From positions 558,001-622,000 of the forward strand of contig JACRHT010000012.1 of NCBI GenBank assembly GCA_016217545.1: DNA of 64,000 nt. Reading direction: 5' to 3'. Numbering within the stretch: position 1 is the first letter of the stretch; every line of letters begins with the position of its first letter. Shown piece after piece: positions 22,119 to 51,444 of the stretch. The translations under genes were made by a program, and so were the position numbers. The stretch comes from Opitutia bacterium (GTDB lineage: Bacteria; Verrucomicrobiota; Verrucomicrobiia; Opitutales; Opitutaceae). Below the pieces are notes generated by a model that was not told the origin of the DNA, made no database searches, and saw only the letters and a list, made by a program, of their open reading frames with translations.

Positions 22119-23231
22119 TCAAATCCGCAGGAAAATCCCGCGCCGATAGAGCCAGCCGCAGAAACCCACCGCGAGCGACGCGCCGACGAGCGCCAGCACG
22201 AGTCCGCCGAGCCCCGCCCACTGCGCGTCGAGCCATGCCGCGACCGGTCCACCCGCGAAGCGCGCCGACAGCGCCGCGAAATCCACGACATTGCTCACGA
22301 GGTAAATCAGCAGCGAGTTCGCGCCCACCCACATGAACGGCCGTGCCCAACCCTGCACGCGCCACACGTCCACCACCTGATAAAACGCCGCGAGCAACAG
22401 CAGGCTCCAGCCGCCCGCCACGAGCACGAACGACGACGTCCACAGGTTCTTGATCACGGGAAACTGCGCGCCCCACAACCAGCCGAGCGCCAACAACACC
22501 ACGCCCGCACCCGCCAGCCCGCCGACTCGCACCCGCGCGCTGCGCGACGCGTCCATGATCCACTTGCTCGCGAACACGCCCAGCAAACACGTCGCGATCG
22601 CCGGCAACGTGCTCAGCAATCCCTCGGGATCGTGGTCCCCGTTCCACTTCCGCAGCGGAAGGAAGTGAGCGTCGACCCAGTTGGTCAGGTTGTGCCCCTC
22701 GCGAAAATCGCCCGCGCCGAAGCCCGGCACCGGCACGAATGCCAACAGCGCCCAATAACCGACCAACAATCCCGCCGCCACCGCCGCCAGCCCGCGCGGC
22801 CGCAGCCACAGATACAGCACGCTCGTCGCGCCGTAGCAGAGCGCGATACGCTGCAGCACGCCCAGCAGCCGCGGCTCGTGTGCCATGCCGCCGTAGTAGA
22901 AAATGCCGAGCGCGAACAACAACACGGTGCGCCGCGCGATCCGTCGCACCGCCTCCGCGCGTCCGCCGGTCGCCACGAGTTTGTCGAGCGACAGCGGGAT
23001 CGCCGCGCCTACCATGAAGACGAACAGCGGAAAAATCAGGTCGTAAGCATGAAAACCCTCCCACGCCACGTGGTCCATCTGCTCGGCCACCGCGTGCAGC
23101 GCCGGCCCGCCGTGCAGGTTGTGCAGTGCGCCACCGATCGCATCCGCCCCGACAATCCAGAACATGTCGAACCCGCGCAACGCATCGAGCGCGAGCAGAC
23201 GATTCGCAGGAGTTGGCGCCGGCGCGCTCAT
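22119..23231 (-). CDS. HGSNAT-like membrane acyltransferase (DUF5009/COG4299)
   Basis: A 370-residue inner-membrane protein with about ten helices. The start LLALDALRGFDMFWIVGADAIG and the LIFPLFVFMVGAAIPLSL stretch (with a conserved His nearby in WEGFHAYDLIFPLF) identify the family that includes human heparan-alpha-glucosaminide N-acetyltransferase, which transfers acetyl from cytosolic acetyl-CoA across the membrane to terminal glucosamine. In the same gene group are GH20 and GH89 enzymes that act on N-acetylglucosamine, which supports a related role. Its start overlaps the GH20 stop by four bases. The exact acceptor is unknown. Confidence 0.85.
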   Translation of the reverse strand: MSAPAPTPANRLLALDALRGFDMFWIVGADAIGGALHNLHGGPALHAVAEQMDHVAWEGFHAYDLIFPLFVFMVGAAIPLSLDKLVATGGRAEAVRRIARRTVLLFALGIFYYGGMAHEPRLLGVLQRIALCYGATSVLYLWLRPRGLAAVAAGLLVGYWALLAFVPVPGFGAGDFREGHNLTNWVDAHFLPLRKWNGDHDPEGLLSTLPAIATCLLGVFASKWIMDASRSARVRVGGLAGAGVVLLALGWLWGAQFPVIKNLWTSSFVLVAGGWSLLLLAAFYQVVDVWRVQGWARPFMWVGANSLLIYLVSNVVDFAALSARFAGGPVAAWLDAQWAGLGGLVLALVGASLAVGFCGWLYRRGIFLRI

Positions 23232-25234
23232 CGCGACGCCTCCGCGAACAACCGCCCGAGCGCCGGCAAAAACGGAAACTCCACCGCAGCCGCCGTGGGC
23301 TTGGCCGCCGTTTTCACCAACTCGCCCACTCGCGCCGCTTCGTCCACTGGCAGCGGCGCGTGCAAGGCGTGCTCGGCGGCGTCACACAGCGCGACGAGCC
23401 GCCGCGCCGTCTCGATGCGCCCGGCGGCGTATTTGTCCGGCGCGGGCATTTGCGCCACCCGCGCGGCAGCCACCCGCCACGCCGCCAAATTCGTCAACAG
23501 GGCATCCCGCTCTCCCGCGCGTTTCTCCGTTGGCAGCGCGAGCCACGTCTCCAAGCGCGCCGCGAATTCCCGCGCCGGCCGGCTCTCGGAGTGCGCCCAG
23601 TCCGCGAGCTCGTTCAGCGGATAATCCAAGCCGCCCTTTTGAATCTGACCGCGCTGATAGCGCTTCACCGGCTCCACCGCCGACGCCAGCACGCGCAACG
23701 CCGCCGCATCCTCCGGCGAAAATCCCTCGAACCGCGGCCAGGCGCGATGCTGCACGCCGGTTTCGACGAGCAGCTCGTCGATGCGCGCGAGCCGGCGATA
23801 CATGTCGGCGACATCGCGCACTTCCCGCAGCGACCACAACCGCTCCGCCACCGCGGCGGCACGCGGCCAGATGCGAAAATCGTAGATCCGCGCGTCCGCC
23901 CACTCGCTCCACATCGGCGCCTCGCCCCCGAGCACGCGCGCCGCCTGCTCCGGCGTGAGCTTCGAATCGGCCGGCAGCGGATCCGCCGCGTAGGCGTCGG
24001 CCGCCGGATAATGCAAATCGAGATAATAGCCCGCCGACAAAATCCCCGCGAAGCCCTGCTGCGCCGCTTGCGCGAGCGATTCCGGTCCACGCCACGAATG
24101 CACCACCGCACTGCGCGGGAAATCCGGGTGCAGCACCTCGTCCCAGCCGACGAGCCGCTTGCCGTGAGGCGTCATCATCGCGGCGAGCTTCTGGTTGAAC
24201 CACGCGTGCAGCGCCTCGTTCGTCGCGAAACCGTGCCCCTTCTTGAAAGCCGTGATGCGCTCGCTCGCGTTCCAGTCCTTGCCGTTGTTCTCGTCGCCGC
24301 CGATGTGGAAAAACTCGTCCGGGAACAACGCCGCCATCTCCGCAAAAAACGAACTCAGCAACGCCTCGGTCTCGAGCTTCGTCGGATCCATCACCGGATT
24401 GAGCACGCCCCAATCCTTCGCGACCGTGTAATTCCTCGGCACACTCGCGATCTCCGGATGCGACGCCAGCCACGCCGTCGCGTGACCCGGCACGTCGAAC
24501 TCCGGCACCACGCGGATGCCGCGCTCGGCCGCCGCCGCGATGATCGCGCGCACCTGCTCCTGCGTGAGCACGCCGCTGCCCGCGCTCACCGCATGCAGCT
24601 CCGGATGCCGCTTGCTCTCGATGCGAAAACCTTGGTCGTCGGTCAGGTGCAGGTGCAGGACGTTCATCTTCACGGCCGCCATCGCATCGAGATTGCGGTG
24701 AATGACCTCCGGCGGCTGGAAATGCCGCGCGACATCGATCATCAACCCGCGCCACGGAAAACGCGGCGCATCCTCGATCACCACGCTCGCCGCCGCGAAC
24801 GAACCGTCCGCGCGCTTCTCCACCAACTGCAAAAACGTCTCCAGTCCACGCAACGCGCCCACGACATTCGGCGCGCGCAACTCGGCACCCGCCGCGCCGA
24901 CCGCGAGCGTGTAGGACTCGTCGTCGCCCAACTTCGGCAGCGACGAGCCCGCATTCTCGCACGTCACCACGAGCGTGCCGCCGCTGGCGACGAAGCGCGG
25001 CCCAAAGGTAATCCCCGCGCGCTTCTCCAGCCGGTCAAGCGCGCGCCCGATGCCGGCGCGGAGCCGCGCATCGTCGTGGCCGGCCACACGCACGCGAAAC
25101 GCGGCATCGATCGCGAGCGCGCCGTCGCGCCAATCCACATGCGCGGGCCAAGGCATGAGGTTCGCCGCCGGTGCCGCATTCGAGGTCATGGCCAAACAGC
25201 CGGAGAAAAGAAGAGCGGCAACAAGGTGCTTCAT
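23228..25234 (-). CDS. GH20 beta-N-acetylhexosaminidase
   Basis: A 668-residue exported enzyme that removes terminal beta-GlcNAc or GalNAc. The N-terminus has a signal peptide (MKHLVAALLFSGCLAM); the FSGC could be a lipobox, though not an ideal one. A GH20b-like domain (about 26-155) precedes the catalytic barrel beginning WRGLMIDVARHF. The catalytic Asp314-Glu315 pair is in HIGGDENNGKDW, and HLHLTDDQGFRIES (195-208) is the usual substrate-site motif. Start 25234 overlaps the MFS porter stop by four bases. A much longer frame upstream is antisense shadow within the porter. Confidence 0.94.
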   Translation of the reverse strand: MKHLVAALLFSGCLAMTSNAAPAANLMPWPAHVDWRDGALAIDAAFRVRVAGHDDARLRAGIGRALDRLEKRAGITFGPRFVASGGTLVVTCENAGSSLPKLGDDESYTLAVGAAGAELRAPNVVGALRGLETFLQLVEKRADGSFAAASVVIEDAPRFPWRGLMIDVARHFQPPEVIHRNLDAMAAVKMNVLHLHLTDDQGFRIESKRHPELHAVSAGSGVLTQEQVRAIIAAAAERGIRVVPEFDVPGHATAWLASHPEIASVPRNYTVAKDWGVLNPVMDPTKLETEALLSSFFAEMAALFPDEFFHIGGDENNGKDWNASERITAFKKGHGFATNEALHAWFNQKLAAMMTPHGKRLVGWDEVLHPDFPRSAVVHSWRGPESLAQAAQQGFAGILSAGYYLDLHYPAADAYAADPLPADSKLTPEQAARVLGGEAPMWSEWADARIYDFRIWPRAAAVAERLWSLREVRDVADMYRRLARIDELLVETGVQHRAWPRFEGFSPEDAAALRVLASAVEPVKRYQRGQIQKGGLDYPLNELADWAHSESRPAREFAARLETWLALPTEKRAGERDALLTNLAAWRVAAARVAQMPAPDKYAAGRIETARRLVALCDAAEHALHAPLPVDEAARVGELVKTAAKPTAAAVEFPFLPALGRLFAEASR

Positions 25235-26634
25235 TGGCGAGCGAACATCTCCTCGATTTCCTCGAGCGTGCGGCCCTTCGTTTCCGGGAGCCAGCGCGCC
25301 ACGACGGCGAAGTAGGCGACGGTGCACGCCGCCCAGAACGCGAACATCGCGCCGTAGCCGTAATGCGTCGTCACCGGCAGGAAGAGCGCGGCGATCGTCG
25401 TCGAGATGCCCTGGTTGATGAGCAGGCCGATGCCCATGCCGAGCGAGCGAATGCGTGTCGGCATCAGTTCCGACAGCGCAAGCCACACGCACACGCCGGG
25501 TCCGATCGCGAACGACGCGATGAACATCATGAGCCCCGCGCTCACGACGAACGCCGAATCCGCATCGGCCGTCATGCCGTGCTCGATCCGCCAGAACGTC
25601 GCGCCGGCCGCGATCAACGCCAGCGCGATGCCGGCCGTGCCGATCTTCAGCAGCACCTTGCGTCCGAGTTTGTCGACCAGCACGAGGCCGAACACCGTGA
25701 ACACCACATTCACGGCCGTCACCCACGTGCCGCGCGTCGCGGCGTCCGCGGCGGAGAGCCCGGCCTTTTGCAGCATCACAACGATGAACTGGAGAATGGA
25801 ATTGATGCCCGTCGTCTGCGTGAGCCCGAGCACGGCGCACGTGAGCACGAACGGCACGATGTAGCGCCGCTGCCAAAGCGATCCCGTCGCCGCGACCGCC
25901 TCGGGCGTCGCCGGCGCCGCCGCCGCCTGCATCGCGGCGAACTCCGCCGCAGCCGCCTCGGGCGTGCGCCCGCGCAACAGCGCCGCGCGCGCGGCATCCG
26001 TTTTCCCCTTCTGCAGCAACCAGCGCGGCGATTCCGCGAGCAACAACGCACCGACGAGGAACAGCACCGCCGGATAAAACGCCGACGAGAACATCGCGCG
26101 CCACGCCGCGTCCTGCGCCTGCACGAGCTCCGCGCCAGTGGCATGCGCCGCCTCGACCTGCCGCGTGTAGTGCGCGCCGACCGCGAGCGAGATCAGGATG
26201 CCCGTCGTGAGCAGCAACTGGAATGCCGCCGTGCCGCGCCCGCGGATCGCCGGCGGGAGGCATTCGGCGAGATAGAGCGGGATCACGACCGCGATCATGC
26301 CGGCGCTGAGACCTTGCAGGGTGCGACCGGCGAAGAGCGCCACGAAACCGTGCGCCGCGACGATGAGCGCGACGCTGGCGAGGAAGATGACCGCCGCCGC
26401 GAGCATGAGCCGCTTGCGGCCGAGCACGTCCGCCAGCGCGCCCGCCACGAGCGACGACACGGTGCCGCCCGCGAGCACCGCGGCGACGACAGCGGATTCC
26501 TGCGCGGCGGTGAGCGCGATCGTCTTGTTCAGGTAGAGCAGCGCGGCGCCGATGATGCCGATGTCGTAGCCGTAGAGAAAGCCGCCCATGCCAGCGATGA
26601 AGAGCAGCAGGGCCGTGTAGAGACGCGGGGTCAT
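25231..26634 (-). CDS. MFS sugar porter
   Basis: A 467-residue major-facilitator sugar porter. Signature motifs of the sugar-porter subfamily are present: GGFLYGYDIGIIGAALLYL in helix 1, DVLGRKRLM in loop 2-3, AGRTLQGLSAGM, PLYLAECLPPAIRGRG, and LPETKGRTLEEIE at the C-terminus. About 12 helices. It is translationally coupled to GH20 (ATGA overlap), so it probably takes up a monosaccharide released by the neighbouring enzymes, perhaps GlcNAc or glucose. The 128-base upstream gap is filled by a dispersed GTCATCGCGAGG repeat. Confidence 0.92.
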   Translation of the reverse strand: MTPRLYTALLLFIAGMGGFLYGYDIGIIGAALLYLNKTIALTAAQESAVVAAVLAGGTVSSLVAGALADVLGRKRLMLAAAVIFLASVALIVAAHGFVALFAGRTLQGLSAGMIAVVIPLYLAECLPPAIRGRGTAAFQLLLTTGILISLAVGAHYTRQVEAAHATGAELVQAQDAAWRAMFSSAFYPAVLFLVGALLLAESPRWLLQKGKTDAARAALLRGRTPEAAAAEFAAMQAAAAPATPEAVAATGSLWQRRYIVPFVLTCAVLGLTQTTGINSILQFIVVMLQKAGLSAADAATRGTWVTAVNVVFTVFGLVLVDKLGRKVLLKIGTAGIALALIAAGATFWRIEHGMTADADSAFVVSAGLMMFIASFAIGPGVCVWLALSELMPTRIRSLGMGIGLLINQGISTTIAALFLPVTTHYGYGAMFAFWAACTVAYFAVVARWLPETKGRTLEEIEEMFARQ

Positions 26635-26762: not shown

Positions 26763-29015
26763 TCAGGGGTTCTGCCAATCGAAGCCGGCGTAACTCGCCC
26801 GGCGGACCGGCGACCATTTCTCGAACAAGGCGCGCGCGACCGCAACCGAATCTCCGCGCGTCGTCGTCGGATGAGGATCATGCCGCTCGCACCACGCGAA
26901 TTCCCAGCGCGCGAGGTCGCGGTAGAAATCGTTCGCGGCGGGAAGAACGCGGCCATCGCGACGCGGCAGGGCGTGGTCGTCGAAGCCGGCGGGCTGTTGC
27001 TCGAGCCACGCGAAATACTTCCGCCAGCGCTCGAGATAGAAACCCTCCATCAAACCGGACCATTGCCGGCAGGAGTATTCGAAAAGCGCGTCGTTCTCCG
27101 GTGTGCCGCCCCAGACGGTGATGAGCTGGCGGGCGTTGCGCTCGTAGAGATCGGCCTCGGCGGACGTTTTGCCCCACGCGCGCGCGTCGGCGAGCCACGG
27201 ACCAAGCAGGAACTCGCGACGTGTGCCGAGCAGGCGGTCGAGGTCGGCGCCGAGCGCGAGGAAGCGGTCGCGCGCCGCGATGAACTTCGCGCGGTCGCCC
27301 GAGCGCCACGCGGCGACGACTTCGCGATGCAGCGGCAACGAGAGGTCGGCGAGCGCCTGGCGCGCGACGTCGACGAGATCGTAGCGGAACGGGTCGACGC
27401 GACCGAGCTGCGGCGCGGCGGCGAGCAGGTCGCCCCACGCGCGCCAGACCGCTTCGACGTCGTAGTCGCGCACAAACGAGCCCCACGGCGACGCCTGTTT
27501 CAGCTCGAGCGCCGGGCGCGCCTGCAGCGGCGACTCCATCGGCGGCTCGGGGCTCTTTTGCGCGTAGACGCTGGTGCGCAGCGCGGACCACGCGCGTTGC
27601 GCAGCGGGATTGTCGGTGCCGTAGCGCGCGTGCACGTAGCGTTGCGTCCACGCCGCGAGGTCGGGCGCCGTGCGGTGCCACGCGAGGTCGGCGGCGAGAT
27701 CGAAGAGCAGCGGGTTGTGCTCGATCGCCTCGGCGAAGTTGCCGACGCCGACGAGCCCGCGGCCGGCGGGCGTGCCGAGGAGCGACGGCGCGTTGGTGGC
27801 GAGTTGCGGGAGGTTGCCGCCGAGACTGTGGCGGCCGCCGTAATTTTGGATGATGCCGGCCACCCAACGACGGCCCCAGAACGAGTCGGTCTCGCGCCAT
27901 TTCTGGCCGGTGAGGTCGAGCACGAGCAGGCGGTCCTCGGGGATGCCGCGCACGATGCCTTCGCGGATCGACCAGCCTTGCATGACGATCGTCGCCTGCG
28001 GATCGAACGCGGTCGTGAGGTGGAAAATCTTCGCGCCGACGTCGTGGAGGTATTGCGCGCCTTCCTGCGGCGGCTCGCCTTCGTGGAACGGATCAGCGGC
28101 GTAAAGGTGATCGCCGCCGAAGAGTTTCTGCTGCTCCTCGAGAAAGGCGCGGCCCATGCGCTCGAAGAGCGGGTCGGCGGGATCGAGTTGCGCGGGGCCG
28201 GGCGGAATTTCGCACCAGACTTTTTTCTGGAGGATGCGCGCCGACGGGAACCGCTCGGCGAGCGCGACGGGCACGCAGCCGGTGAAACCCTGCAAAATCG
28301 GCGTCATGCCGAGCTCGCGTTCGCGGCGGATGATCCACTGTCCGAGTTCGAAGTGCGAATCGATCCACGACTGCGGCAGCGGACCGCCCCACGCCTCGAT
28401 GTTGGTCATCCATTGCCAGGCGAAGAACGCCGGGCCGACAAAGAAGGCTCGGATCTCGTCGTCGTTCATGCCGAAGCGCCGCAGCGTCGCCTGCCAGACG
28501 GCTTCCTGTCCGGTGATGGCGAGCGGCGTGGTGACGCCGTTCAGCGCCATCCAGTCGATCTCGCGCTCCCAGCGTGCGCGGTCCCACCACGCGGCGGTAT
28601 AGTTGAAGGTGCAGTAATTCAGGTAAACGCGTTGCGCGTAGGGCGACTCGATGCGGACCTTCTCCGGGACGGCGGGCAGTTTTTCCGGCAAGGCGAGGTT
28701 GTCGCCGCACCACGAAATCTGCGCGTGGGCGACGTTTCGGAAATACCAGTTCAGTGCCGCGCCGATGGTGACGCCGTTGTGGCCGCGCAGGACGAGGCGT
28801 CCGTCGCGCGTCTCGACTTCAAACGCATCCGGTGCGCCGGGCGCGTGCTCGAGCGGCTCGAGCACGATCTGTTTCGCGTGCTGCGGCACGATCCGCGCGA
28901 CGAGGGCGCGCGCGGCGTCGAGCGAGTCGGCGCGAACGGCCGTGGTGAAAAGGCAGGCGGCCAAGAGCGCGCACACGCTCTTGGCCGCACGAAGCAACAC
29001 AGACCCCGATGTCAT
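26763..29015 (-). CDS. GH89 alpha-N-acetylglucosaminidase
   Basis: A 750-residue exported enzyme homologous to human NAGLU, cutting terminal alpha-linked GlcNAc as found in heparan sulfate ends or mucin O-glycans. A signal peptide (residues 1-29, ending VRADS) is followed by a small N-terminal domain and the catalytic barrel (NYCTFNYTAAWWDRARWEREIDWMALNGV). By comparison with the family, the catalytic acids are Glu312 in ADPFHEGEPP and Glu429 in VGNFAEAIEHN. Start at 29015 overlaps the GH17 stop by four bases (ATGA). The longer frame upstream runs antisense through GH17. Confidence 0.93.
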   Translation of the reverse strand: MTSGSVLLRAAKSVCALLAACLFTTAVRADSLDAARALVARIVPQHAKQIVLEPLEHAPGAPDAFEVETRDGRLVLRGHNGVTIGAALNWYFRNVAHAQISWCGDNLALPEKLPAVPEKVRIESPYAQRVYLNYCTFNYTAAWWDRARWEREIDWMALNGVTTPLAITGQEAVWQATLRRFGMNDDEIRAFFVGPAFFAWQWMTNIEAWGGPLPQSWIDSHFELGQWIIRRERELGMTPILQGFTGCVPVALAERFPSARILQKKVWCEIPPGPAQLDPADPLFERMGRAFLEEQQKLFGGDHLYAADPFHEGEPPQEGAQYLHDVGAKIFHLTTAFDPQATIVMQGWSIREGIVRGIPEDRLLVLDLTGQKWRETDSFWGRRWVAGIIQNYGGRHSLGGNLPQLATNAPSLLGTPAGRGLVGVGNFAEAIEHNPLLFDLAADLAWHRTAPDLAAWTQRYVHARYGTDNPAAQRAWSALRTSVYAQKSPEPPMESPLQARPALELKQASPWGSFVRDYDVEAVWRAWGDLLAAAPQLGRVDPFRYDLVDVARQALADLSLPLHREVVAAWRSGDRAKFIAARDRFLALGADLDRLLGTRREFLLGPWLADARAWGKTSAEADLYERNARQLITVWGGTPENDALFEYSCRQWSGLMEGFYLERWRKYFAWLEQQPAGFDDHALPRRDGRVLPAANDFYRDLARWEFAWCERHDPHPTTTRGDSVAVARALFEKWSPVRRASYAGFDWQNP

Positions 29016-30046
29016 GGTTGCGAAGGATAGAATTCGCGGATGATCGCGGCAAACGAAGCTTTCGGTTTTCTTTGGGTGTCGAACACGCCCCAGTGTTTCT
29101 CGACGACTTGCGGCGGGTTCTTGTCGCCGCCGCCCTTCCAGTTCTCGTCGAAGGCCTCGAAGAGGATCGTGGGCACGCGGCGCTCGTTCACCCAGCGGTA
29201 GTGCTGGCGCAGGTAGTTTTCCTGCGCGGCGACGGAGACCTCGGCCTTCATCAGCGCGCCTTCCTCGCCGGGCTTGTTGCGCGTCGGATCGTAGCTCGTG
29301 GCCCAGCCGGTCTCGCCGATGATGACGGGAATGCCGGGATGGAGGCGGACGGTGTTGTCGTATTGCGCGGCGAGCCACGACATGCCCTCGGCGAGCGGGC
29401 GGCCGTTCCAGAGCGCGTAGCCGTGCAGGATGATGAAATCCAACTCGGCGGCGACGGCCTGCGAGGCGGGCTTGTTCCAGAAGTTGTAGTCGTCGGCGGA
29501 CGTGACGGGCTGCTTCACGGCGGGGCGGACTTCGCGGGCCCAACGCGCGATGTCGGCGGGATCGACGCGGTGGTCGGACCACTCGACGCAGGGCTCGTTG
29601 CCGATCGCGACGGCGATGACGACGTCCGGATAGGCGTTCGCGACGCGCACCACGCCCGCGAGTTCGTCGCGGTTGCGCTGCTGGTGCGCGGGCGTGTCGT
29701 TCGTCACGACCCAGGCGCCGACGATGGCGCGGATCGGGAGCTTGTGCTCGTGGATGAGCCGCACGGTGCGCTCGGAAACGCCGGTGGCTTCATACATGCG
29801 AATGAAATTCCAGTAGCGCGCGACGAGCTGTAGGTCGGCGAGGATCTCGGCGTCGCTCGGCTCCGCGCCGTAGGGCGCCTGGCCGTCGCGATAGGCGCTG
29901 AACGAGATGCCGTTGCCAATCCAGCGGCCGTCGAGTTCGAGGTTCAGCGCGCGGCGACCGCCGGGCAATTCACCGGCGCGGGCAGCCGCGGCGGCGAGCA
30001 GAAGCAGCGCCGCGCTGGCGGCGAGGGAGGACAGGAGGCGTTTCAT
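29012..30046 (-). CDS. GH17-type exo-beta-1,3-glucanase-like protein
   Basis: A 344-residue exported protein with a signal peptide (MKRLLSSLAASAALLLLAAAAARAG). The catalytic acid/base is Glu151 in AVAIGNEPC and the nucleophile Glu245 in IIGETGWAT, as in GH17 enzymes acting on beta-1,3-glucan. It belongs to the bacterial group with short loops (Scw4/COG5309-like). The gene starts 10 bases after the stop of the phosphorylase-like gene and overlaps the GH89 start, so the three genes are almost certainly co-translated. Substrate is inferred. Confidence 0.85.
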   Translation of the reverse strand: MKRLLSSLAASAALLLLAAAAARAGELPGGRRALNLELDGRWIGNGISFSAYRDGQAPYGAEPSDAEILADLQLVARYWNFIRMYEATGVSERTVRLIHEHKLPIRAIVGAWVVTNDTPAHQQRNRDELAGVVRVANAYPDVVIAVAIGNEPCVEWSDHRVDPADIARWAREVRPAVKQPVTSADDYNFWNKPASQAVAAELDFIILHGYALWNGRPLAEGMSWLAAQYDNTVRLHPGIPVIIGETGWATSYDPTRNKPGEEGALMKAEVSVAAQENYLRQHYRWVNERRVPTILFEAFDENWKGGGDKNPPQVVEKHWGVFDTQRKPKASFAAIIREFYPSQP

Positions 30047-30056
30047 GCAGAAATTT

Positions 30057-33000
30057 TCAGAGCGGCCGGAACGCAGCGCCGAGTTCGACGTCGATGCGCG
30101 TGATGGCGCCGCGCCGGGCGAAGAGTTGGGCGCTCGTCTCGGCGTCCAGCGTGCTGCCGGGTTGCTCCATCATCGTGCCGTCGGCGCGGGTCCAGCGGAT
30201 GCGCGGCTGACCGCGACCGAATTGATAGACCACCGGGACGCCGCAGAGCGTGAAGGCGAGCGCCTGTGCCGGGACGTAGACGGTGAGTTCGCGGCCATCG
30301 CCTTTCGCGAGCGTGAGCGAGGCGGGCGCGGTGGTGAATTCACCGGCGCGCAGGAAGGTCGGCTGGAAGGAGACGGTGCCGTTCGCGATGCGGAGGCCGA
30401 GTTCGCCGGCGCGGGTGAGGATTTCCTCTTTCACCTGGCCGGTCATGCCGGGCTGTTGCGCGCCACTGTGGCCGGGCGTGTGCGAGTAGGGATCGGTCGG
30501 GAACGCGCCGTAGGCGGCGGGCGTCTTGTTGAAGCCGAGGCCGGCGCGGATATCGTAGTAGTGCTCGGTGAGCGCGGGGACTTCGGGAGCGGACTTCGCC
30601 TGGGCGGCGAGCAGGTTTTCCTGCACGGCGAGGAGGAGTTTCGCGACCATGTGCCAGTAGATGCAGCCGAGGCCTTCGTAGCCGAACATGCTGCCGCTGC
30701 GGCCGGTGAAGGCGTGATGGTTGAAGACGCGCTCGTAGGTCTCTTCGACGCTGGTCGCGTGCAGGCTCACCAAATGGGACCACCGCGCGTCGGCCGCGAG
30801 TTCGCGCAGGCGCGCGCGCAGTCCGTCGCCGTTGGTGAGATCGGCTTGGAAACGGTGCACACCGGCGGCGTCGCGCAACACGAGGCGGGTGTCGCCGACG
30901 GCGAGCAACGCCTGCAACAGTGGCGATGCGGCCACGGCGTCGGCGGGAATCACGGCGCGATCGAGGAACGCGGGGAGCTGCCGGTCGGGGTAGAGCACGT
31001 AGCTGTTTTGATCGGCGCGGTAGAGCGCGCTGGCGCGCAAGGTGCGGAGCAGCTCGACGACTTTGGCTGGCGAAAGCAGGCCGGAGCTGAGGATCGCAAC
31101 CTGGCCTTCGAGCATCGGGTAGAGTTCCTTGATGCGGAGGGCGCGCGGCTCTTCGGAGAATTCGAGGCGCAGGTAAGCTTCGTAGAGTCCGTCGGCGCGG
31201 CGTCCGCCGCGGAGCGTGTGGTCGACGTGCTGGAGCGCGAGCGTGACGGCGGCGGCAACGTCGCCCGGCGCGACGGCGAGCGGCTCGCCCGGGCCGCTGC
31301 GATAAACGGCTTCGCGGTAATCGGAGCCGGCTTGCGCGAGGGCGTCGAGGAGGCTGCGGCGTTGGCAATCGCTCGCCGCGGATTGATCGAGAATCACGCG
31401 ATGAGCCGCGAGCGCGATTTGCACGCGTTGCAGGAGATCGCGCACGTGGCTCGACAGCGCGACCGGCTCGGTGCCGAGGGCGGGCAGCCACTCGTCGCGG
31501 AGTTGCGCGAGCATGCGGCGCAGGTAGCAGAGCGTGACGAAGGAAACGCCGTAGCCGACGAGGGCGTTGTTGGCGTCGTTCCACTCGGGGCGCTGCGTGT
31601 TCATCCAGATGCCGGCGCCGGCGACGTAGTTGGTCAGGCGCGTGAGCGTGAGCAGCAGGAGTTTCTCGGTGAGATTGACGTGGCGCACGCGACCGGAGGC
31701 GTCAGCGAGCAGGCGCGCGTCGGAGCCTTCGTTTTTCGCGCGGGCGAGAATTTCGCGGTGGAGCGCGGTGTCGAAGCGGATCGTCTCGCGGGGATTGCGG
31801 CGGAGCTCGGCGTAGGGCGCGATGCGGTAGGGGACGTTGGCGTAGGCGAATTGCGGCGCGCGCAGCGCGGCGTGGAGCTGGCCGGGGCGGAAGCGCGCGG
31901 ACCACTCGAGGAGTTTCTGGAGATAGATGACTTGGTGATCGCCCCAATAGCCGATCGACGACCACGGGTCCTCGTGATCGGGGACTTCCCAATCGATGCC
32001 GGTGTGCGAGATGCGGTAGGGGTTATAGCCGTCGGCGGTGGAGGCGTTGAGGAACTTGGCAATGGCGCCGTCGACGAAGCCGGGGTAGCTCGCGCACAGC
32101 GCTTCCCAATTCTGGAAGATGTCGCGCCAGTTGCCTTCGTGCGCGAGGACGCGTTCGCCGCGGGCGTCGCGCACGCGGATGCTGAAGCGGTTCCACGGGC
32201 GGCTCGGATCGCCGTGGCGGCGGCTGAAGGTGAGCGGGAGGTATTCGCGGGCGAGGCGGGCGAGATCGGGATCGTTTTGCGCGGAGGCGGTGGCGACGAG
32301 TTCGTCGCACGCGATAGTGGCGGGCAGTTTTTCGAGCCAGGCGGCGTGGCGCGTGGCGACGGCGGTGCTGTGCGTGCGCACGAACGCCGCGAAGTCCGCG
32401 GCCGGGGCGCGCATGTCGTCGACGAAGACGCCGCCGCGCATGACGTTGAAGAGGACGTTGGCGAAGTGGTGCGCGGCGGTGGTTTCCTCGCCGCTGAGTT
32501 GCGCGCCGTCGGCGGCGCCCACGATGGCGCGGAGGCGCTGGGTGGCGGCGGCGATGGCGGGCGCGACTTGCGCGGGCAATTCGCCGCGAACGAGAGCGGC
32601 GTGGCGGCGCACGACTTCGGACTGTGTGAGGTCGGTGTCGACGACCATCGTCCAATCCTGCTGCGCGTCCGGGGCGAGAGTGAGCGTGGCGGCGAGGCCG
32701 TAAGCGCCGCGAACGCCGCGGGCGCGGGTCTCGGTCGCGACGGGTTCGCCGTGTTGGTGGGCTTCGATGGCGCCGTCGGAGAGCAGCACGCGCGCGCCGG
32801 GCAGGCCGTGCGACCAGACGGCGGTGGCGAGGAGCGACTCGAGCGGGATGGCGCGATCGACGATGCCGGCGGCGAGAGAGTAGACGGCGAAGGTGGAGCC
32901 GGGAAGGAGTTCGGCGGTCTTGTAGGCGTCGGCGAGGCAGGAGCTGCCGCTTTGGAGGCGGCTGTTGATGCCGGGCGGGAGGAGATTGCGCAGGCTGTCG

Positions 33001-33518
33001 ACGACGCGGATCTCGCGGGCGGTGCGCGAGAGGTTCAGCAACTGGCATTGGCGCACGAAGCCGTGCGGCTCGGCGGTGGACCAGCCGTAGCGGAAGACGA
33101 GTTCGAGCGCGTGATGGGTTTCCTCGAACCAGAGGCGGTCGCCTTCGACGCTCTTGTAGAGGCGGCGCGAGATCGGATGGAGCTCGTCCGTGTGGGGCGC
33201 GAAGGGTTCCCAGACGACGGCGTCCTCGCCGCGGCCGATGCGGAGCATCGTCGCGGGACCGCTGAGGCCGGCGCTGTCGTAGATCTTGTCGACGGTGGTG
33301 TAGGGGAAGATCGCGTGATCGGCGTCGGTGCGGCCGGCGGTGAGCGCGCCGTTGCTGGCGACGAAGGCCCAGAGGTCGGACGCGCTGACGAGGTTGATGA
33401 AGAACGTCGGGAGCGACTGCGCCTCGTCGATGCGGTAGAAGCGACCGCCAAAGGCGTCGACAAAGGTGCCGCGGGCGGCGGTGGGAACGTTACGGGTGTC
33501 TCGAAGGACGGACGGCAT
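30057..33518 (-). CDS. Very large putative beta-1,3-glucan phosphorylase (GH149/GH161/GH94-like)
   Basis: A 1153-residue protein without signal peptide or membrane helices, so cytoplasmic. I did not recognise it with certainty. Three points suggest an inverting disaccharide/oligosaccharide phosphorylase of the GH94-GH149-GH161 group: the unusual length; the stretch DPWSSIGYWGDHQVIYLQKL (about the middle), where GDH resembles the DDH of the GH94 general-acid motif; and late motifs GSMFGYEGLGCIYWH and GHSGAQQPGMTGQVKEEIL in the place of the phosphate-binding region. Neighbours GH17, GH30 and sugar transporters fit beta-glucan. Start 33518 (MPSVLRDTRN) was chosen over an upstream TTG. Another alpha/alpha-barrel glycosidase remains possible. 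Confidence 0.6.
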   Translation of the reverse strand: MPSVLRDTRNVPTAARGTFVDAFGGRFYRIDEAQSLPTFFINLVSASDLWAFVASNGALTAGRTDADHAIFPYTTVDKIYDSAGLSGPATMLRIGRGEDAVVWEPFAPHTDELHPISRRLYKSVEGDRLWFEETHHALELVFRYGWSTAEPHGFVRQCQLLNLSRTAREIRVVDSLRNLLPPGINSRLQSGSSCLADAYKTAELLPGSTFAVYSLAAGIVDRAIPLESLLATAVWSHGLPGARVLLSDGAIEAHQHGEPVATETRARGVRGAYGLAATLTLAPDAQQDWTMVVDTDLTQSEVVRRHAALVRGELPAQVAPAIAAATQRLRAIVGAADGAQLSGEETTAAHHFANVLFNVMRGGVFVDDMRAPAADFAAFVRTHSTAVATRHAAWLEKLPATIACDELVATASAQNDPDLARLAREYLPLTFSRRHGDPSRPWNRFSIRVRDARGERVLAHEGNWRDIFQNWEALCASYPGFVDGAIAKFLNASTADGYNPYRISHTGIDWEVPDHEDPWSSIGYWGDHQVIYLQKLLEWSARFRPGQLHAALRAPQFAYANVPYRIAPYAELRRNPRETIRFDTALHREILARAKNEGSDARLLADASGRVRHVNLTEKLLLLTLTRLTNYVAGAGIWMNTQRPEWNDANNALVGYGVSFVTLCYLRRMLAQLRDEWLPALGTEPVALSSHVRDLLQRVQIALAAHRVILDQSAASDCQRRSLLDALAQAGSDYREAVYRSGPGEPLAVAPGDVAAAVTLALQHVDHTLRGGRRADGLYEAYLRLEFSEEPRALRIKELYPMLEGQVAILSSGLLSPAKVVELLRTLRASALYRADQNSYVLYPDRQLPAFLDRAVIPADAVAASPLLQALLAVGDTRLVLRDAAGVHRFQADLTNGDGLRARLRELAADARWSHLVSLHATSVEETYERVFNHHAFTGRSGSMFGYEGLGCIYWHMVAKLLLAVQENLLAAQAKSAPEVPALTEHYYDIRAGLGFNKTPAAYGAFPTDPYSHTPGHSGAQQPGMTGQVKEEILTRAGELGLRIANGTVSFQPTFLRAGEFTTAPASLTLAKGDGRELTVYVPAQALAFTLCGVPVVYQFGRGQPRIRWTRADGTMMEQPGSTLDAETSAQLFARRGAITRIDVELGAAFRPL

Positions 33519-33578
33519 GGCTGGGGGGCCGAGCAACCTTTGCCGAGCGCGGAGCGGCGCGGTTGAGCGGACGGAAAA

Positions 33579-34634
33579 TCAGGCGCGTCGGGGCGGGGCG
33601 ATGGACTGGCCTTCCACCAGCTTCGCTTCCACGAGGATTTTTCGACGCGGAGAATTGGGATGGACGATGCGGTTGAGGAGGCGGGAGATGCCGGCGATGC
33701 CGATGTCCTCGTGCGGCACTTGCATGGAAGCGACGCGGCGGAGGTGCGGCGGCGGCTCGAGGCCGTCGAAGCCGGTGATGGAAATATCCTCGGGCACACG
33801 GATGCCGCGCACCTGGAGATCAGCCATTAGTTGATAAGCTTGGTGGTCGGCGGCACAGACCCACGCGGTGACGCCACTCTCGCGCGCATGCCGCATCACG
33901 GCGTCGCAGAGCTGGGGGTTGGAGAGGCGAGGGGAGTCGCGGTGGATGTTGAGCACCCACGACGGATTGAACTCAAGGCCGAGGCTGAAGAGTCCCTCGA
34001 CGTAGCCACCGAAGCGCTGCAGCGCCCAATGCCCGCCGACCGGATAGTGCCACGTGAGGTAGCCGATGCGCTTGTGCCCGGCCGCCGCGAGCTGACGCAC
34101 GAGCGTCACCATGCCCGTGTCCTCATCGGTATCGATCGTGTCGACGAGGGGATTGTCGTAGTTTTCGAGGAGCGAGACGGTGGAGATTTTCTTCGCGATC
34201 GCTTCGACCGCCGGCTCGGTGAAGGGATAAATCAGCAGCACGCCGCGCCAGTCGCCGCCGCGAATGTGGCGAAAAACGGGTTGGCGGGTCGCGGCGGGAT
34301 CGAATTCGCCGGGCGGCTGATAATGGATGTCGACCTTCACCCGCTCGACCTCCGCGCACTCGCGGATGCCTTTCAGCAGATACGGAAAAGTGGCCAGTGC
34401 GACGTTCTCCGCCGGCACGCCGATCAACACGCCGAGCGTCACGTCGCGGATCGCCGCCTGCGCGCGACGCGCGCGGCGTCCGGGCGACTGGCGATAACCG
34501 AGCTCCTCCGCCATCTCGAGAACCTTGGCCCGGGTGTCGGCGCTGATCGCGGGATGATTGGCCAAGCTGCGCGAGACCGTGGTGCGCGAGACGTTCAGCC
34601 GTTTGGCGATCAGACCTTGATTCAGAGACTCCAT
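33579..34634 (-). CDS. LacI-family transcriptional regulator
   Basis: A 351-residue repressor-like protein. The N-terminal helix-turn-helix and hinge (LIAKRLNVSRTTVSRSLANHPAISADTRAKVLEMAEELGYRQS) are followed by a periplasmic-binding-protein-like ligand domain (about 65-345) with SITGFDG near the end. It is the first gene of a minus-strand group with the phosphorylase-like, GH17 and GH89 genes, and divergent from a TonB receptor gene; both are likely targets. Three GTGCAC palindromes in the shared upstream region are candidate operators. The ligand is probably a glucan-derived sugar. Confidence 0.92.
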   Translation of the reverse strand: MESLNQGLIAKRLNVSRTTVSRSLANHPAISADTRAKVLEMAEELGYRQSPGRRARRAQAAIRDVTLGVLIGVPAENVALATFPYLLKGIRECAEVERVKVDIHYQPPGEFDPAATRQPVFRHIRGGDWRGVLLIYPFTEPAVEAIAKKISTVSLLENYDNPLVDTIDTDEDTGMVTLVRQLAAAGHKRIGYLTWHYPVGGHWALQRFGGYVEGLFSLGLEFNPSWVLNIHRDSPRLSNPQLCDAVMRHARESGVTAWVCAADHQAYQLMADLQVRGIRVPEDISITGFDGLEPPPHLRRVASMQVPHEDIGIAGISRLLNRIVHPNSPRRKILVEAKLVEGQSIAPPRRA

Positions 34635-35040: not shown

Positions 35041-38004
35041 ATGCACCCCAAGCTGAACCCAATCCGCGACGTCGGATTCAAATCGTGTTTGGCCGCGCTG
35101 CTGATCGCTTCGGCCCCGAGCTTTGCTCAGGCCCAAGCGGCGGCGACGGACAACACCGCGGCTCCCGCCGCCAAGAAGACCGAAGACGAAGCCGTCGTCC
35201 TCTCTCCGTTCACCGTCACGACGGACAAGGATAATGGCTACAAAGCCACCAACACCACTTCCGGCACGCGCCTGAACACTCCGATCAAGGACCTCCCGAT
35301 GCCCATCGAGGTGATCACGGAGAAATTCATCCGCGACACCGGCTCGAAGGACCTGCGCGAAACGCTCCGCTACAGCGCCGGCATCCAGCTGCAGTCGCAA
35401 AACGACTGGGGCACCACGCAGGGCTGGGCCGCGACGACGCCCGGCCGCATCAACAATCCCGAAGGCAGCACCGCCACCGCCGACCAATCGCGCGTGAAGA
35501 TCCGCGGCTTCCTCACTGAAGCCTCGCTGCGCGACGGCTTCCGCCGCCAGAACTCCACCGACTCGGTCAATCTCGCCCGCGTCGAAGTCATCCGCGGCCC
35601 GTCCTCGCTCCTTTACGGCGTCGGTAACTTCGGCGGCGTGGTGAACTACCTCGTCAAGCAGCCGAGCAAGAAGAGCGGCGGCGAAGTCTCCTTCGAGTAT
35701 GGCAGCTACAACCTGATGCGCGGCACGATCGACTACACCGGTCCGGTCTCGGACACGGTCGATTACCGCCTCACCGCCGCCTACCAGCGCACCGACGATT
35801 ACACCGACTACAAGAAAGAGAACCACTACTTCGTCGCGCCGATCGTCACCTGGCAGCCGTTCAAGGACACGAAGATCACCTTCGACACCGAGTTCGGTAA
35901 GCAGAACCGCAGCGGCATCGGCTTCCAGAACATCCGCGCCGTGCCGACCGGCTTCGTGAACAGCTCCGACGGCTACAACGGCGGCTTCCTCACGCCCGCC
36001 GGCCGCAACCCGAAGGAATTCCGCTGGAGCGGCCCCGACACCTTCAACGACAGCAAGGCCTGGAACGTCCTGTTCAAACTAGAGCAAAAGCTCGCCGAGA
36101 ACCTCTACTTCAACGTCGGCTACAACAACTCGAAGTTCAGCTACGACCAGCTCGACGTCTCCGCCTCGCTCCAGACGCCCGGCACGTCCACGCCCGCGTG
36201 GGCCATCGCCAACATCGTCTACGTTCCGCTCGTCACCGGCCAAAGCGGCATCCCGACCGGTCCCCAGCCGGCCACCATCGGCTACCAATGGAACGCCTCC
36301 ACCGAGGACGACAAACACGAGCAGATCCGCGCCGACCTCACCTACAAGCTCGACCTCTTCGAGACCTCCAAGTGGTTCAAGATGGAGAACACCTTCCTCG
36401 CCGGCCTGAACTACACCAGCGAGAGCTACGAAAACGTCATCCGCGGCACCCCGTATAACCGCAACATGTTCAAGAGCCCGGCCGACAGCTCGCCCTTCAA
36501 GGCCGGCAAACAGGCCGACGGTTCCGCAGACCACGCCATGGTCGACCTCTTCCACCAGATCCAGAAGACGAAGGACTCCGCCCTCTACGCCGTCTACCAA
36601 GGCAAACTCCTCGACGAGTGGGTCACGCTCATCGCCGGTGTCCGCAAGGATCGCAGCTGGAATAAATTCTGGCACTACAACCCGCAATGGGGCGCCGGCA
36701 ACGTCGGCCACAATCAGGGCTACGACGAGAAACCCGTCGAGCAATACGGCGAGCCGAGCAAGGACACGACCTACCAATACGGCATCGACGTTCGCCTCAC
36801 CCGCAGCGGCAGCCTCTCGCTCTACGCGATGAAGGCCGAGTCCAGCCTGCCGAATTACGACGGCGCAAAGGACTTCAACGGCAACGTCATCAAAGCCGCC
36901 CTCGGCGAGGATAAGGAAATCGGCCTCAAGTTCGACCTCTTCAACGGCCGAGTCTCCGGCACCATCTCCAAGTTCCAGATCACCCGCACCCGCGTCGGCA
37001 TCGGCAACCCGGGCGGCATCTGGTGGGCGCCCACCGCTTCCGGCACGTCCTACTTCAAGCCGGACAAGAACATCGTTTATCAGGTCAACGACCTGAATCC
37101 GACCAACAACGGCTGGAACGCCGCCGTCGTCGCCTCCACCGCCCAGTGGAATGCCGCTGTCGCCGCCGGCTCCGTCTACCAAGCGACCAACTCCGCCGGT
37201 AACACCAACTGGTATGTCAACGCCTCCTCCACGACCGGTGCCGCGCTCATGGACGCCGTGTTCGCCAACGCCATCAGCACCAACTCCACGGGCTGGTGGG
37301 GCTGGATCTACAGCTTCGACAACCTGACCAACAACGCGACGGTCGACTACAACGGCGCCTCGCCCCCGGGACCCACCGGCGGCCGCTCCGTCCCGCTCGG
37401 CTCCGATCGCTCCGAAGGCTGGGACGCGCAAGTCCTGCTCTCGCCGACCGACAACCTCCAGATCGCGCTGTCGTATTCGACCATCGAAAAGACTGTGCTC
37501 AACGCCTCCGCGTGGGCCAAGTATCCTTACCCGCAGGATCGCTGGGCGATCTGGTATGCGCCGATCGATTGGGCTGACGGCGGCACCGCTGCCTCGAAGC
37601 GCTTCACCGACCCCACCGACACCTCGACGCACATCTCGTTCGGCAACGGCCTCACGCTCGACGACACTCCGAAGAGCCAGAGCTCCGCTTGGGTGAACTA
37701 CCAGTTCCCGAAGGCCAGCGCGTTCAAGGGCTTCTCCCTCGGCGCCGGCGTCGTGCACACCGGTTCGGGCGTCATCTACCCGACCTACTTCAGCCAGCCG
37801 AAGGACTCGAAGGGCAACGTCATCTTCCTGAACTCGAAGGCCAAGACCGTCTGGAACGGCATGGCGCGCTACGAGTTCAAGATGCGCGGCCACGACGCCT
37901 CGCTACAGCTCAACATCGACAACCTGACCAACAACACCGACTACTACGGCTTCATTGCTCAGGCTCCGCGGCGCTTCTCGCTCACCTATTCGCAGAAACT
38001 GTGA
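35041..38004 (+). CDS. TonB-dependent outer-membrane receptor (first locus)
   Basis: A 987-residue TonB-dependent receptor. A signal peptide (about residues 1-32, ending AQAQAA) is followed by a possible TonB box (VVLSPFTVTT), the plug domain (NTTSGTRLNTPIKDLPMPIEVITEKFIRD, VEVIRGPSSLLYGVGNFGGVVNYLVKQP) and a beta-barrel ending in aromatic FSLTYSQKL. Large receptors of this type, without a SusD partner, are typical of Opitutaceae. It faces the LacI gene and probably imports the oligosaccharides handled by the GH17/GH30/phosphorylase-like enzymes. A terminator follows. Confidence 0.92.
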   Translation: MHPKLNPIRDVGFKSCLAALLIASAPSFAQAQAAATDNTAAPAAKKTEDEAVVLSPFTVTTDKDNGYKATNTTSGTRLNTPIKDLPMPIEVITEKFIRDTGSKDLRETLRYSAGIQLQSQNDWGTTQGWAATTPGRINNPEGSTATADQSRVKIRGFLTEASLRDGFRRQNSTDSVNLARVEVIRGPSSLLYGVGNFGGVVNYLVKQPSKKSGGEVSFEYGSYNLMRGTIDYTGPVSDTVDYRLTAAYQRTDDYTDYKKENHYFVAPIVTWQPFKDTKITFDTEFGKQNRSGIGFQNIRAVPTGFVNSSDGYNGGFLTPAGRNPKEFRWSGPDTFNDSKAWNVLFKLEQKLAENLYFNVGYNNSKFSYDQLDVSASLQTPGTSTPAWAIANIVYVPLVTGQSGIPTGPQPATIGYQWNASTEDDKHEQIRADLTYKLDLFETSKWFKMENTFLAGLNYTSESYENVIRGTPYNRNMFKSPADSSPFKAGKQADGSADHAMVDLFHQIQKTKDSALYAVYQGKLLDEWVTLIAGVRKDRSWNKFWHYNPQWGAGNVGHNQGYDEKPVEQYGEPSKDTTYQYGIDVRLTRSGSLSLYAMKAESSLPNYDGAKDFNGNVIKAALGEDKEIGLKFDLFNGRVSGTISKFQITRTRVGIGNPGGIWWAPTASGTSYFKPDKNIVYQVNDLNPTNNGWNAAVVASTAQWNAAVAAGSVYQATNSAGNTNWYVNASSTTGAALMDAVFANAISTNSTGWWGWIYSFDNLTNNATVDYNGASPPGPTGGRSVPLGSDRSEGWDAQVLLSPTDNLQIALSYSTIEKTVLNASAWAKYPYPQDRWAIWYAPIDWADGGTAASKRFTDPTDTSTHISFGNGLTLDDTPKSQSSAWVNYQFPKASAFKGFSLGAGVVHTGSGVIYPTYFSQPKDSKGNVIFLNSKAKTVWNGMARYEFKMRGHDASLQLNIDNLTNNTDYYGFIAQAPRRFSLTYSQKL

Positions 38005-38201: not shown

Positions 38202-39644
38202 GTGTCGTCCGTCCCTGAACGTCTCTCCTTCCGTGAAAAACTCGCCTACGGTCTCGGCGATACCGCGTCGAATTTCTACTTCGCGCTCTTCAACGGATTC
38301 CTCGTCTATTACTACACTGACGTCTTCGGCCTGACGCCCGGCACCGCCGGCAGCGTCGCCGGCCTCGTGCCCTCCCTCGTCTCGTGGCTCATCCCGCTGA
38401 TCGGCCTGCTCGCCGACCGCACACACACGCGCTGGGGCCAATTCCGCCCGTATCTCCTCTGGGCAGCGATTCCCTACGGCATCTGCGGCTACGTGATGTT
38501 CTCCAACCCCGCGCTCAGCCCGAGCGCCAAGGTCGGCTTCGCCTACGTCACCTACGCCGCCACGCTCATCGCCTACCTGACGATCAACACGCCCTACTCC
38601 GCGCTCATGGGCGTCATGTCGCCCTCGTCTGAAGAGCGCACCGGCCTCTCCGCCTATCGTTTCGCGTGCGCCTTCACCGGCGGCCTGATCATCGGAACCT
38701 ACGTGCCGTTTCTCAAAGACCACTTCGGCGCCACCGAAGCCGACAGCTTCCGCAACATGATGGCCGTCTTCGCGGTCATCTCCGTCGCGATGTTCCTCTA
38801 CACCTTCTGGAACACCCGCGAGCGCGTCGCCGCCCCGGTCAGCGCGCAACAATCCGTCGCCACCGACCTCCGCGACCTCTCGCGCAACATTCCCTGGCTG
38901 ATCCTGTTCTTCGCCGGCTTCCTCACGCTCGCCAACGTTGGCCTCCGCTCCGGCGCCACCGTCTATTATTTCAAATACGTCGTCGGTGACGACGCCCTGC
39001 GCGGCTTCGACGAATTCTTCGGGCCTTTCGCGCGCGTGCTCGCGTTCCTGAAAATCTCCTCGTCCGGCCTCGGCCTCTACAACTTCGCCGGCGGCCTCGC
39101 GTTCATCATCGGCTCGCTCAGCACGAAACTCTTCCTGCGCTTCTTCGCCCGCCGCCCGCTGATGATCGCGCTCACGATCCTCAACGCGCTCGCGATGGCC
39201 GCGTTCTTCGTCGTCGACCCGCACAATCTCGCCGTCCTCGCCGGGCTGAACATCTTCGCCTCCTTCGTCGCCGGCCCGACGCCCGCGATCGTCTGGTCGT
39301 TCTACGCCGACACCGCCGATTTCGGCGAATGGAAGTTCGGCCGCCGCAGCACCGGCCTCGTCTTCTCCGCCGCCGTGCTCGCGCAAAAAGTCGGCCTCGC
39401 CCTCGGCACCGCGCTGCTCGGCTGGCTCCTCAGCTACTACGGCTACGTCGCCAACGCCGTGCAGACCCCGCGCGCCATCACCGGCATCTACCTCGTCTTC
39501 GCCGTGCTGCCCGGCACCTTCGCGCTGCTCAGCGGTCTCGCCATCTTCTTCTACAAACTCGACGAACCGACCGTGAAACAGATCGAGCGCGACCTCGCCG
39601 CCCGCAAAGCCGCCCCCTCCGACGCGGCCGCAACCGTCTCCTGA
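38202..39644 (+). CDS. MelB-like sugar:cation symporter (GPH family)
   Basis: A 480-residue inner-membrane symporter of the glycoside-pentoside-hexuronide family with about 12 helices. The N-terminal motif EKLAYGLGDTASNFYFALFNGFLVYYYTDVFG and the loop LLADRTHTRWGQFRPYLLW are characteristic. The start is GTG at 38202. It is the first gene of a plus-strand run with GH30 (18-base gap) and an SSS symporter. The substrate is probably a glucoside or short glucan, but is not proven. Confidence 0.92.
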   Translation: MSSVPERLSFREKLAYGLGDTASNFYFALFNGFLVYYYTDVFGLTPGTAGSVAGLVPSLVSWLIPLIGLLADRTHTRWGQFRPYLLWAAIPYGICGYVMFSNPALSPSAKVGFAYVTYAATLIAYLTINTPYSALMGVMSPSSEERTGLSAYRFACAFTGGLIIGTYVPFLKDHFGATEADSFRNMMAVFAVISVAMFLYTFWNTRERVAAPVSAQQSVATDLRDLSRNIPWLILFFAGFLTLANVGLRSGATVYYFKYVVGDDALRGFDEFFGPFARVLAFLKISSSGLGLYNFAGGLAFIIGSLSTKLFLRFFARRPLMIALTILNALAMAAFFVVDPHNLAVLAGLNIFASFVAGPTPAIVWSFYADTADFGEWKFGRRSTGLVFSAAVLAQKVGLALGTALLGWLLSYYGYVANAVQTPRAITGIYLVFAVLPGTFALLSGLAIFFYKLDEPTVKQIERDLAARKAAPSDAAATVS

Positions 39645-39662: not shown

Positions 39663-41087
39663 ATGCGTTCCTCAACCGTCATCCGCTCTGCGAGCGCCGC
39701 TGCGCTCGCCGCCCTCATGCTCACTTCAGCCCGCGCCGCCACCTGGACGGTCGTCGAGACCGCCCGCGACAACTCCCACCGCCTCGCGCCCATCGCCGCT
39801 CCGGCCAAGGCCGCCGCCGCTTCCGCCGACGCGCTCAAGGTCGACACCGCGCAGCGTTACCAGGAAATGATCGGCTTCGGCGGCGCGCTCACCGAGTCGT
39901 CCGCGTGGGTGCTCGCGCAGCTGCCCGCCGACAAACGCCTCGAAGTCATCCGCCGTTACTACGACCCGAAGGACGGCATCGGCTACACCCTCGGCCGCAC
40001 GCACATGAACTCGTGCGACTTCTCGCTCAACATCTGGTCGCTCGACGACGTCCCGCACGACTACGACCTCCACGCCTTCACCCTCGAGCCGATGCGCAAA
40101 TGGCTCATGCCGCTCCTACAGGACGCTCGCAAGGCCGCCGGCGGCGACGCCAACTTCAAGCTCCTCGTCTCGCCGTGGGCGCCGCCCGCGTGGATGAAGA
40201 ACAACGTCCGCGCCGACGACGGCGGCGAACTCCGCTGGGACTTCGCCGCGCCGTGGGCCAACTTCTACGTGAAGTTCGTCCAAGCGATGCAGAAGGAAGA
40301 AAACTTCCCCATCTGGGCCTTCACCGTCCAAAACGAACCCGAAGCCAAACAGCGCTGGGAATCCTGCCTCTTCACGCCCGAGCAGGAACGCGACTTCGTT
40401 AAAAACCACCTCGGGCCCGCCTTCGAGAAAGCCGGCCTCCTCGGCAAAGTGAAGCTCCTCGGCTGGGACCATAACCGCGACCGCATGGAAGCCCGCGCCG
40501 ACGCCATGCTCGGCGATCCGGATTGCGCAAAATACCTCTGGGGCCTCGGCCTGCACTGGTATGTGAGCGAAGACTTCGAAGCCTCCGCGCGCGTCCACGC
40601 GCGCTATCCCGACAAGGCGCTGCTCTTCACCGAAGGCTGCTGGGAAGGCGGCGACAAGCTCGGCGTCTGGGAGCACGGCGAAGGCTACGCCACGCAGATG
40701 ATCGGCGACTTCAAGAACTGGGTCGGTGGCTACATCGACTGGAACATCGTCCTCGACCAGCGCGGCGGCCCCAACCACGTCGGCAACTTCTGCGACGCCC
40801 CCATCATCGTCGACGTGAACACCAAGGAAGTCCGCTACAGCGCCGCGTTCTACTACATCGGGCACTTCTCGAAGTTCGTGAAGCCCGGCGCGCACCGCAT
40901 CGCCTCCGCCGGCGGCCCGGCCGCCCTCGACACGATCGCTTTCCAGAACCCCGACGGCTCCGTCGCCACGATCGTGATGAACAAGACCGCCGCGCCCGCG
41001 ACGTTCCAGCTCGCCGTCGCCGGCGAAACAGTCGCCTGCCAGATCCCGGCGCGCGCGATCCAGACCTACGTGCGCTCGGCCAACTGA
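39663..41087 (+). CDS. GH30 family glycosidase (beta-glucosylceramidase / beta-1,6-glucanase type)
   Basis: A 474-residue exported enzyme. A signal peptide (MRSSTVIRSASAAALAALMLTSARA) precedes the GH30 barrel with GFGGALTESSAWVLAQL. The acid/base is Glu225 in TVQNEPEAKQ and the nucleophile Glu324 in LFTEGCWEGG, followed by the C-terminal beta domain that wraps back on the barrel. In this subfamily known substrates are glucosylceramide and beta-1,6-glucan; with GH17 and a putative phosphorylase nearby, beta-1,6 branches of a beta-1,3-glucan are the more likely target. It lies 18 bases after the MelB-like gene. Confidence 0.93.
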   Translation: MRSSTVIRSASAAALAALMLTSARAATWTVVETARDNSHRLAPIAAPAKAAAASADALKVDTAQRYQEMIGFGGALTESSAWVLAQLPADKRLEVIRRYYDPKDGIGYTLGRTHMNSCDFSLNIWSLDDVPHDYDLHAFTLEPMRKWLMPLLQDARKAAGGDANFKLLVSPWAPPAWMKNNVRADDGGELRWDFAAPWANFYVKFVQAMQKEENFPIWAFTVQNEPEAKQRWESCLFTPEQERDFVKNHLGPAFEKAGLLGKVKLLGWDHNRDRMEARADAMLGDPDCAKYLWGLGLHWYVSEDFEASARVHARYPDKALLFTEGCWEGGDKLGVWEHGEGYATQMIGDFKNWVGGYIDWNIVLDQRGGPNHVGNFCDAPIIVDVNTKEVRYSAAFYYIGHFSKFVKPGAHRIASAGGPAALDTIAFQNPDGSVATIVMNKTAAPATFQLAVAGETVACQIPARAIQTYVRSAN

Positions 41088-47155: not shown

Positions 47156-47301
47156 TCAAGGCGCACCGTAGGCCACTCGCTCCCGACGTCAAAGCTCGCC
47201 GTCCGTCCTAGGCAATACACCCGGCGTGGCCTGGTGTTTCCGTTTGTGTTTCGGGACAGAGCGCGTTGGCTGGCGGGCATCTAACCCTGGCACCCCTGGT
47301 C

Positions 47302-51435: not shown

Positions 51436-51444
51436 AGGAGGCGC

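Follow-up and report, generated by a model that had tools for sequence, protein, structure and literature searches.

Among the closest known systems, Pro_7066 is a GH149 beta-1,3-oligoglucan phosphorylase from a metagenomic library whose structure has been solved (PDB 6HQ6 and 6HQ8; PMC6771811). EgP1, from the eukaryote Euglena gracilis, belongs to GH149 by its authors' definition and is reported to have a conserved active site (PMC5827456); we liken it by description to the protein presented here. The GH161 beta-1,3-glucan phosphorylase (PDB 9gy9 and 9qqk) has its clan, fold and reaction type in common with our protein, while PsLBP, a GH94 laminaribiose phosphorylase (PDB 6ggy and 6gh3), has neither of the two inserted domains and acts specifically on disaccharides (PMC6771811). 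Here we analyze a stretch of 64,000 nucleotides from an Opitutia bacterium (contig JACRHT010000012.1, positions 558,001 to 622,000; hereafter the window), in which positions 30057..33518 of the minus strand encode a 1153-residue protein. Its assignment as a GH149 phosphorylase is supported by an equivalog profile, by a match to the sequence of a solved structure and by the fold, and it very probably is a cytoplasmic beta-1,3-glucan phosphorylase acting on laminari-oligosaccharides.

Family and fold of the 1153-residue protein

The protein matched the NCBIfam equivalog model NF058639 (1,3-beta-D-glucan phosphorylase, GH149 family), scoring 1431.4 bits where the cut-off is 1150, with residues 16-1146 covering model positions 6-1133 of 1134. 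No Pfam family, including the GH94 catalytic-domain model, matched at E≤10; this means only that Pfam lacks a suitable model, since NCBIfam does have one. An initial annotation, made from the sequence alone, had found no known family obvious at first sight, a view that the named GH149 model supersedes.

Three distinct sequences of solved structures matched the protein at E≤10. Pro_7066 did so with 985 bits, compared to 46.7 bits for 9h8v (entry name cellobiose phosphorylase) and 46.4 bits for 9qqk (entry name GH161). We rejected membership of GH161 on this difference, and it is exceedingly improbable, despite the common clan, that the protein is a GH161-type phosphorylase needing chains of at least three units. 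The GH149 half of the GH149/GH161-type activity initially proposed was therefore retained and the GH161 half dropped. Membership of GH94 was rejected on the Pfam result; the clan fold is nevertheless common to both.

The predicted model overlays 6HQ6 over nearly its whole length (residues 14-1153 on chain residues 19-1156, 1122 aligned, root-mean-square deviation 2.1), with 39-41 percent identity to Pro_7066 in structural alignments. It has the architecture of GH149: an N-terminal beta-sandwich, a helical linker, an (alpha/alpha)6 barrel, a C-terminal jelly roll and two inserted domains. Both insert regions also aligned without large gaps in the sequence alignment with Pro_7066, which extends as far as about chain residue 985. 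Both the profile match and the barrel fold on which the initial annotation had staked its proposal were thus found.

The gene runs from 33518 to 30057, with an ATG start, 1153 codons plus a stop and no stop inside the frame; the protein length given in the initial annotation, which named no strand, is confirmed on the minus strand. An alternative TTG start lies at 33536, 18 bases upstream of the ATG. The gene is overlapped by a plus-strand frame of 1219 amino acids (29907..33566), whose translation over the GH149 stretch matched no Pfam family at E≤0.01 and which we take for a shadow frame. The 1431-bit, end-to-end match to a model of 1134 positions places the minus-strand frame far beyond chance. 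By eye, the N-terminus of the protein contains no hydrophobic stretch, and a cytoplasmic location is probable.

Active-site residues

The active site of Pro_7066 comprises W651-N652-D653, of which D653 is the predicted catalytic residue, R470-D471, E951 and H959 (PMC6771811). These residues align to W646-N647-D648, R465-D466, E948 and H956, respectively, of the window protein (the 6HQ6 chain and the numbering of the paper differ by a constant offset of 19, counted by hand). Pro_7066 is thus alike in whole-chain alignment, in fold including the insert regions, and in all named active-site residues. To gauge conservation, we aligned 81 sequences, the window protein and those of 80 loci, the best 80 of at least 591 relatives found by patterns including PEWNDANN and WRDIFQNW. 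One entry, L080, ended 6 bases short of its match, in a part that contains none of the columns counted. The WND motif (31575..31583, minus strand) is present in 81/81, as are the RD motif (32121..32126, minus), corresponding to the sugar 1-phosphate recognition residues of Pro_7066, and both E948 and H956 (residues 948-956; 30651..30677, minus).

The two motifs singled out by the initial annotation are indeed present. QQPGMTGQ, at residues 1021-1028 (30435..30458, minus), is a family motif in which Q1022, P1023, G1024, T1026 and G1027 occur in all 81 sequences. GDH, at residues 526-528 (31935..31943, minus), has D and H in all 81 and G in 77. The role suggested for GDH, a general acid like that of GH94, does not hold up: D527 is conserved, but the predicted catalytic Asp of Pro_7066 aligns to D648, which we therefore regard as the likely catalytic residue in place of D527.

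Gene neighbourhood and related loci

On the minus strand, the GH149 gene is directly preceded by a gene for a LacI-type regulator (33579..34634; Pfam LacI and Peripla_BP_3), 60 bases away by coordinates. It is followed after 10 bases by a GH17 glucanase gene (29012..30046; Pfam Glyco_hydro_17, 38 bits, cut-off 28.2), whose product has a signal-peptide-like N-terminus by eye, and then by a gene for a NAGLU alpha-N-acetylglucosaminidase (26763..29015; three NAGLU Pfam domains), a family that we take to be GH89. After a gap of 128 bases come genes for a major facilitator superfamily (MFS) sugar porter (25231..26634; TIGR00879, 285.6 bits, cut-off 237.8), a GH20 beta-hexosaminidase (23228..25234; Pfam Glyco_hydro_20, 299.9 bits on 23228-25219, the start being placed by reading frame) and a NagX-like membrane protein (22119..23231; NF046061, 300.7 bits, under its cut-off of 480; DUF5009, 34.9 bits, cut-off 25). 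The GH17/GH89, porter/GH20 and GH20/NagX-like pairs each overlap by 4 bases. A sodium:solute symporter gene (20448..21980; Pfam SSF; TIGR00813, 161.1 bits, under the cut-off of 184) completes the minus-strand series.

Divergent from LacI, the plus strand encodes a TonB-dependent receptor (35041..38004; Pfam Plug), a GPH-family sugar:cation symporter (38202..39644; TIGR00792, 311.1 bits, cut-off 231.35), a GH30 glycosidase (39663..41087; Pfam Glyco_hydro_30, 249.5 bits) and a second sodium:solute symporter (41315..43096; TIGR00813, 262.3 bits, cut-off 184). The nearest NCBIfam model to the GH30 protein is endo-1,6-beta-glucanase, at 251.4 bits (under its cut-off of 700). All the neighbours listed in the initial annotation, GH17, GH30 and four transporters (the sugar porter, the GPH symporter and the two sodium:solute symporters), could be located near the GH149 gene.

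Farther along the window lies an alpha-glucan set (48617-58523) made up of an alpha-amylase domain, MFS, GH77, GH31 and a TonB-dependent receptor; the AraC-type regulator that goes with it is encoded at 47266-48366. A plus-strand frame of 1151 residues (58701-62156) carries two domains, an alpha-amylase domain at residues 50-536 (186.1 bits) and, towards the C-terminus, a putative esterase domain at residues 898-1062 (78.6 bits); the part that separates them gave weak Ig-like matches. ATP synthase genes occupy the left end of the window (694-4651, minus), 3122-4651 by Pfam and the others by eye.

A GH149 match was found in 19 of the 57 genomes searched, our own included, and was over cut-off in 18 of them; none of 14 control genomes had a match over cut-off. 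The closest copy seen, 94 percent identical, is in genome G007, and the nearest named relatives among the matches listed belong to Opitutia, Opitutaceae and Puniceicoccaceae (56-65 percent identical). In genome G010 (stretch L113) the match is spread over two frames that part at about 9362-9371, through a frameshift or an assembly error. GH149 genes also occur, among the matches listed, on contigs titled archaeal (Brockarchaeota, L040; Halobacteria) and on Demequina, Actinomycetales, Chloroflexi and Alkalibacterium contigs, and binning error may lie behind these titles. The GH149 frame of L040 scored 1692.3 bits; of the 8 frames scanned among its 10, 5 matched no NCBIfam family at E≤1e-10, and the stretch yielded no tRNA.

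We used the window's neighbour proteins as queries (E≤1e-10) against 94 GH149 loci, leaving out the window's own. Matches to GH17 were found in 35 loci, GPH in 20, the sugar porter in 17, GH30 in 16, LacI in 13, the TonB receptor in 5, the sodium:solute symporters in 2 and 1, GH89 in 1, and GH20 and NagX-like in none, all of these being lower bounds because many loci are short or ended by contig ends. Two of the loci, L002 and L084, are the same DNA, giving 93 distinct loci with GH17 in 34 and the TonB receptor in 4. We also compared 13 longer stretches from the same taxonomic family, representing 13 of the 14 other genomes with a match (G005, on two contigs, was left out); some matches here are partial and several stretches stop at contig ends. 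LacI and the TonB receptor each matched in 11 of these stretches, GPH in 9, and GH30 and GH17 in 6 each. Matches to GH89, GH20 and NagX-like occurred together in 2/13, those of genomes G006 and G007. Only G007 has a sugar-porter match between GH89 and GH20; L104, one of these two stretches, has two GH17 copies ahead of the GH89/GH20/NagX-like matches and no sugar-porter match.

Published GH149 clusters, as described in PMC5827456, where the family was first defined, comprise a type I with LacI or AraC regulators and ABC transporters, a type II in which TonB receptors accompany an MFS transporter (pfam13347) and a GH17 enzyme that is cytoplasmic, and Bacteroidetes clusters with GH30_1, GH3, GH17 or GH16. 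Several observations weigh against a cytoplasmic GH149 phosphorylase acting on laminari-oligosaccharides. The window mixes these cluster types, with LacI occurring outside a type I setting, a GH17 that looks exported by eye rather than cytoplasmic as in the published TonB clusters, and GH30, whose GH30_1 subfamily was published for Bacteroidetes. GH17 matched in only 6/13 family stretches and G025 had no neighbour match at all. The WND loop is weakly modelled (block 641-650, mean predicted local distance difference test score 52), so that the catalytic Asp rests on sequence alignment. Because the search patterns contain both WND and RD, their presence in every aligned sequence partly reflects the selection of relatives and does not test the assignment independently. 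Lastly, the co-directional GH89, GH20 and NagX-like genes are unexplained by beta-1,3-glucan. We regard the mixed cluster features as lying inside the known range.

The co-directional genes, with the porter and the 4-base overlaps, and their recurrence beside GH149 in two related stretches could point to another main natural substrate, either a different glucan or a component of some mixed glycan. Pro_7066 is also reported to accept disaccharide acceptors of other beta linkages (PMC6484121). Against this, the active-site residues are unchanged, the equivalog cut-off is passed, and 11/13 related stretches show no GH89/GH20 match, though in several of them the contig stops close to GH149; we consider a different main substrate very unlikely. 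As a tentative and rather doubtful proposal, GH149, GH17, GH89, porter, GH20 and NagX-like may form one operon that couples beta-1,3-glucan phosphorolysis to N-acetylglucosamine release in some members of the genus. Such an operon would serve a composite substrate, for example fungal wall or mixed necromass glycan.

Proposed route and meaning for the bacterium

Breakdown of beta-1,3-glucan by the GH149 enzyme would begin with GH17, and perhaps GH30, cutting the polymer outside the cell or in the periplasm, the pieces being brought in by the TonB receptor and the GPH symporter. Enzymes of this clan are inverting phosphorylases working in a single step at the non-reducing end. Phosphate would attack with D648 as acid, releasing alpha-glucose-1-phosphate and shortening the chain by one unit, and for a GH149 member the usable beta-1,3-gluco-oligosaccharides would extend down to laminaribiose. 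The LacI protein would act as the switch of the cluster. Phosphorylase reactions are reversible, and both Pro_7066 and EgP1 were assayed in the synthetic direction (PMC5827456), so the enzyme could in theory mainly make beta-1,3-glucan from glucose-1-phosphate. The surrounding importers, glycosidases and LacI regulator point instead to breakdown, and a mainly synthetic role seems very unlikely indeed.

In the genome as a whole, searches at default threshold gave one GH17, one GH16, six GH3 and two phosphohexomutase-family matches; the last make a route from glucose-1-phosphate to glycolysis possible in principle. The GH94 model matched three times, twice over cut-off. Contig C16 of this genome (L098, 1033-3810, minus; G000:C16) encodes a 925-residue SOGP-like phosphorylase with supersandwich, GH94-superfamily and C-terminal domains. 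Two of the six GH3 matches are on that contig too, at distances of about 9 and 14 kb, and this region is perhaps a beta-1,2-glucan locus.

Phosphorolysis by the GH149 enzyme would save one ATP per glucose-1-phosphate, and an energy gain by this route, as the initial annotation proposed, is a reasonable expectation. The gene is well supported as an ordinary, expected member of the characterised GH149 family, in the usual kind of cluster for sugar uptake and breakdown. Its practical worth lies in a right annotation and in the correction of which Asp is the likely catalytic one. For the biology of the organism, the analysis shows a GH149 phosphorylase gene accompanied by genes for a regulator and for importers; among the matches listed, the named sequences nearest to this gene come from Opitutaceae and their kin.
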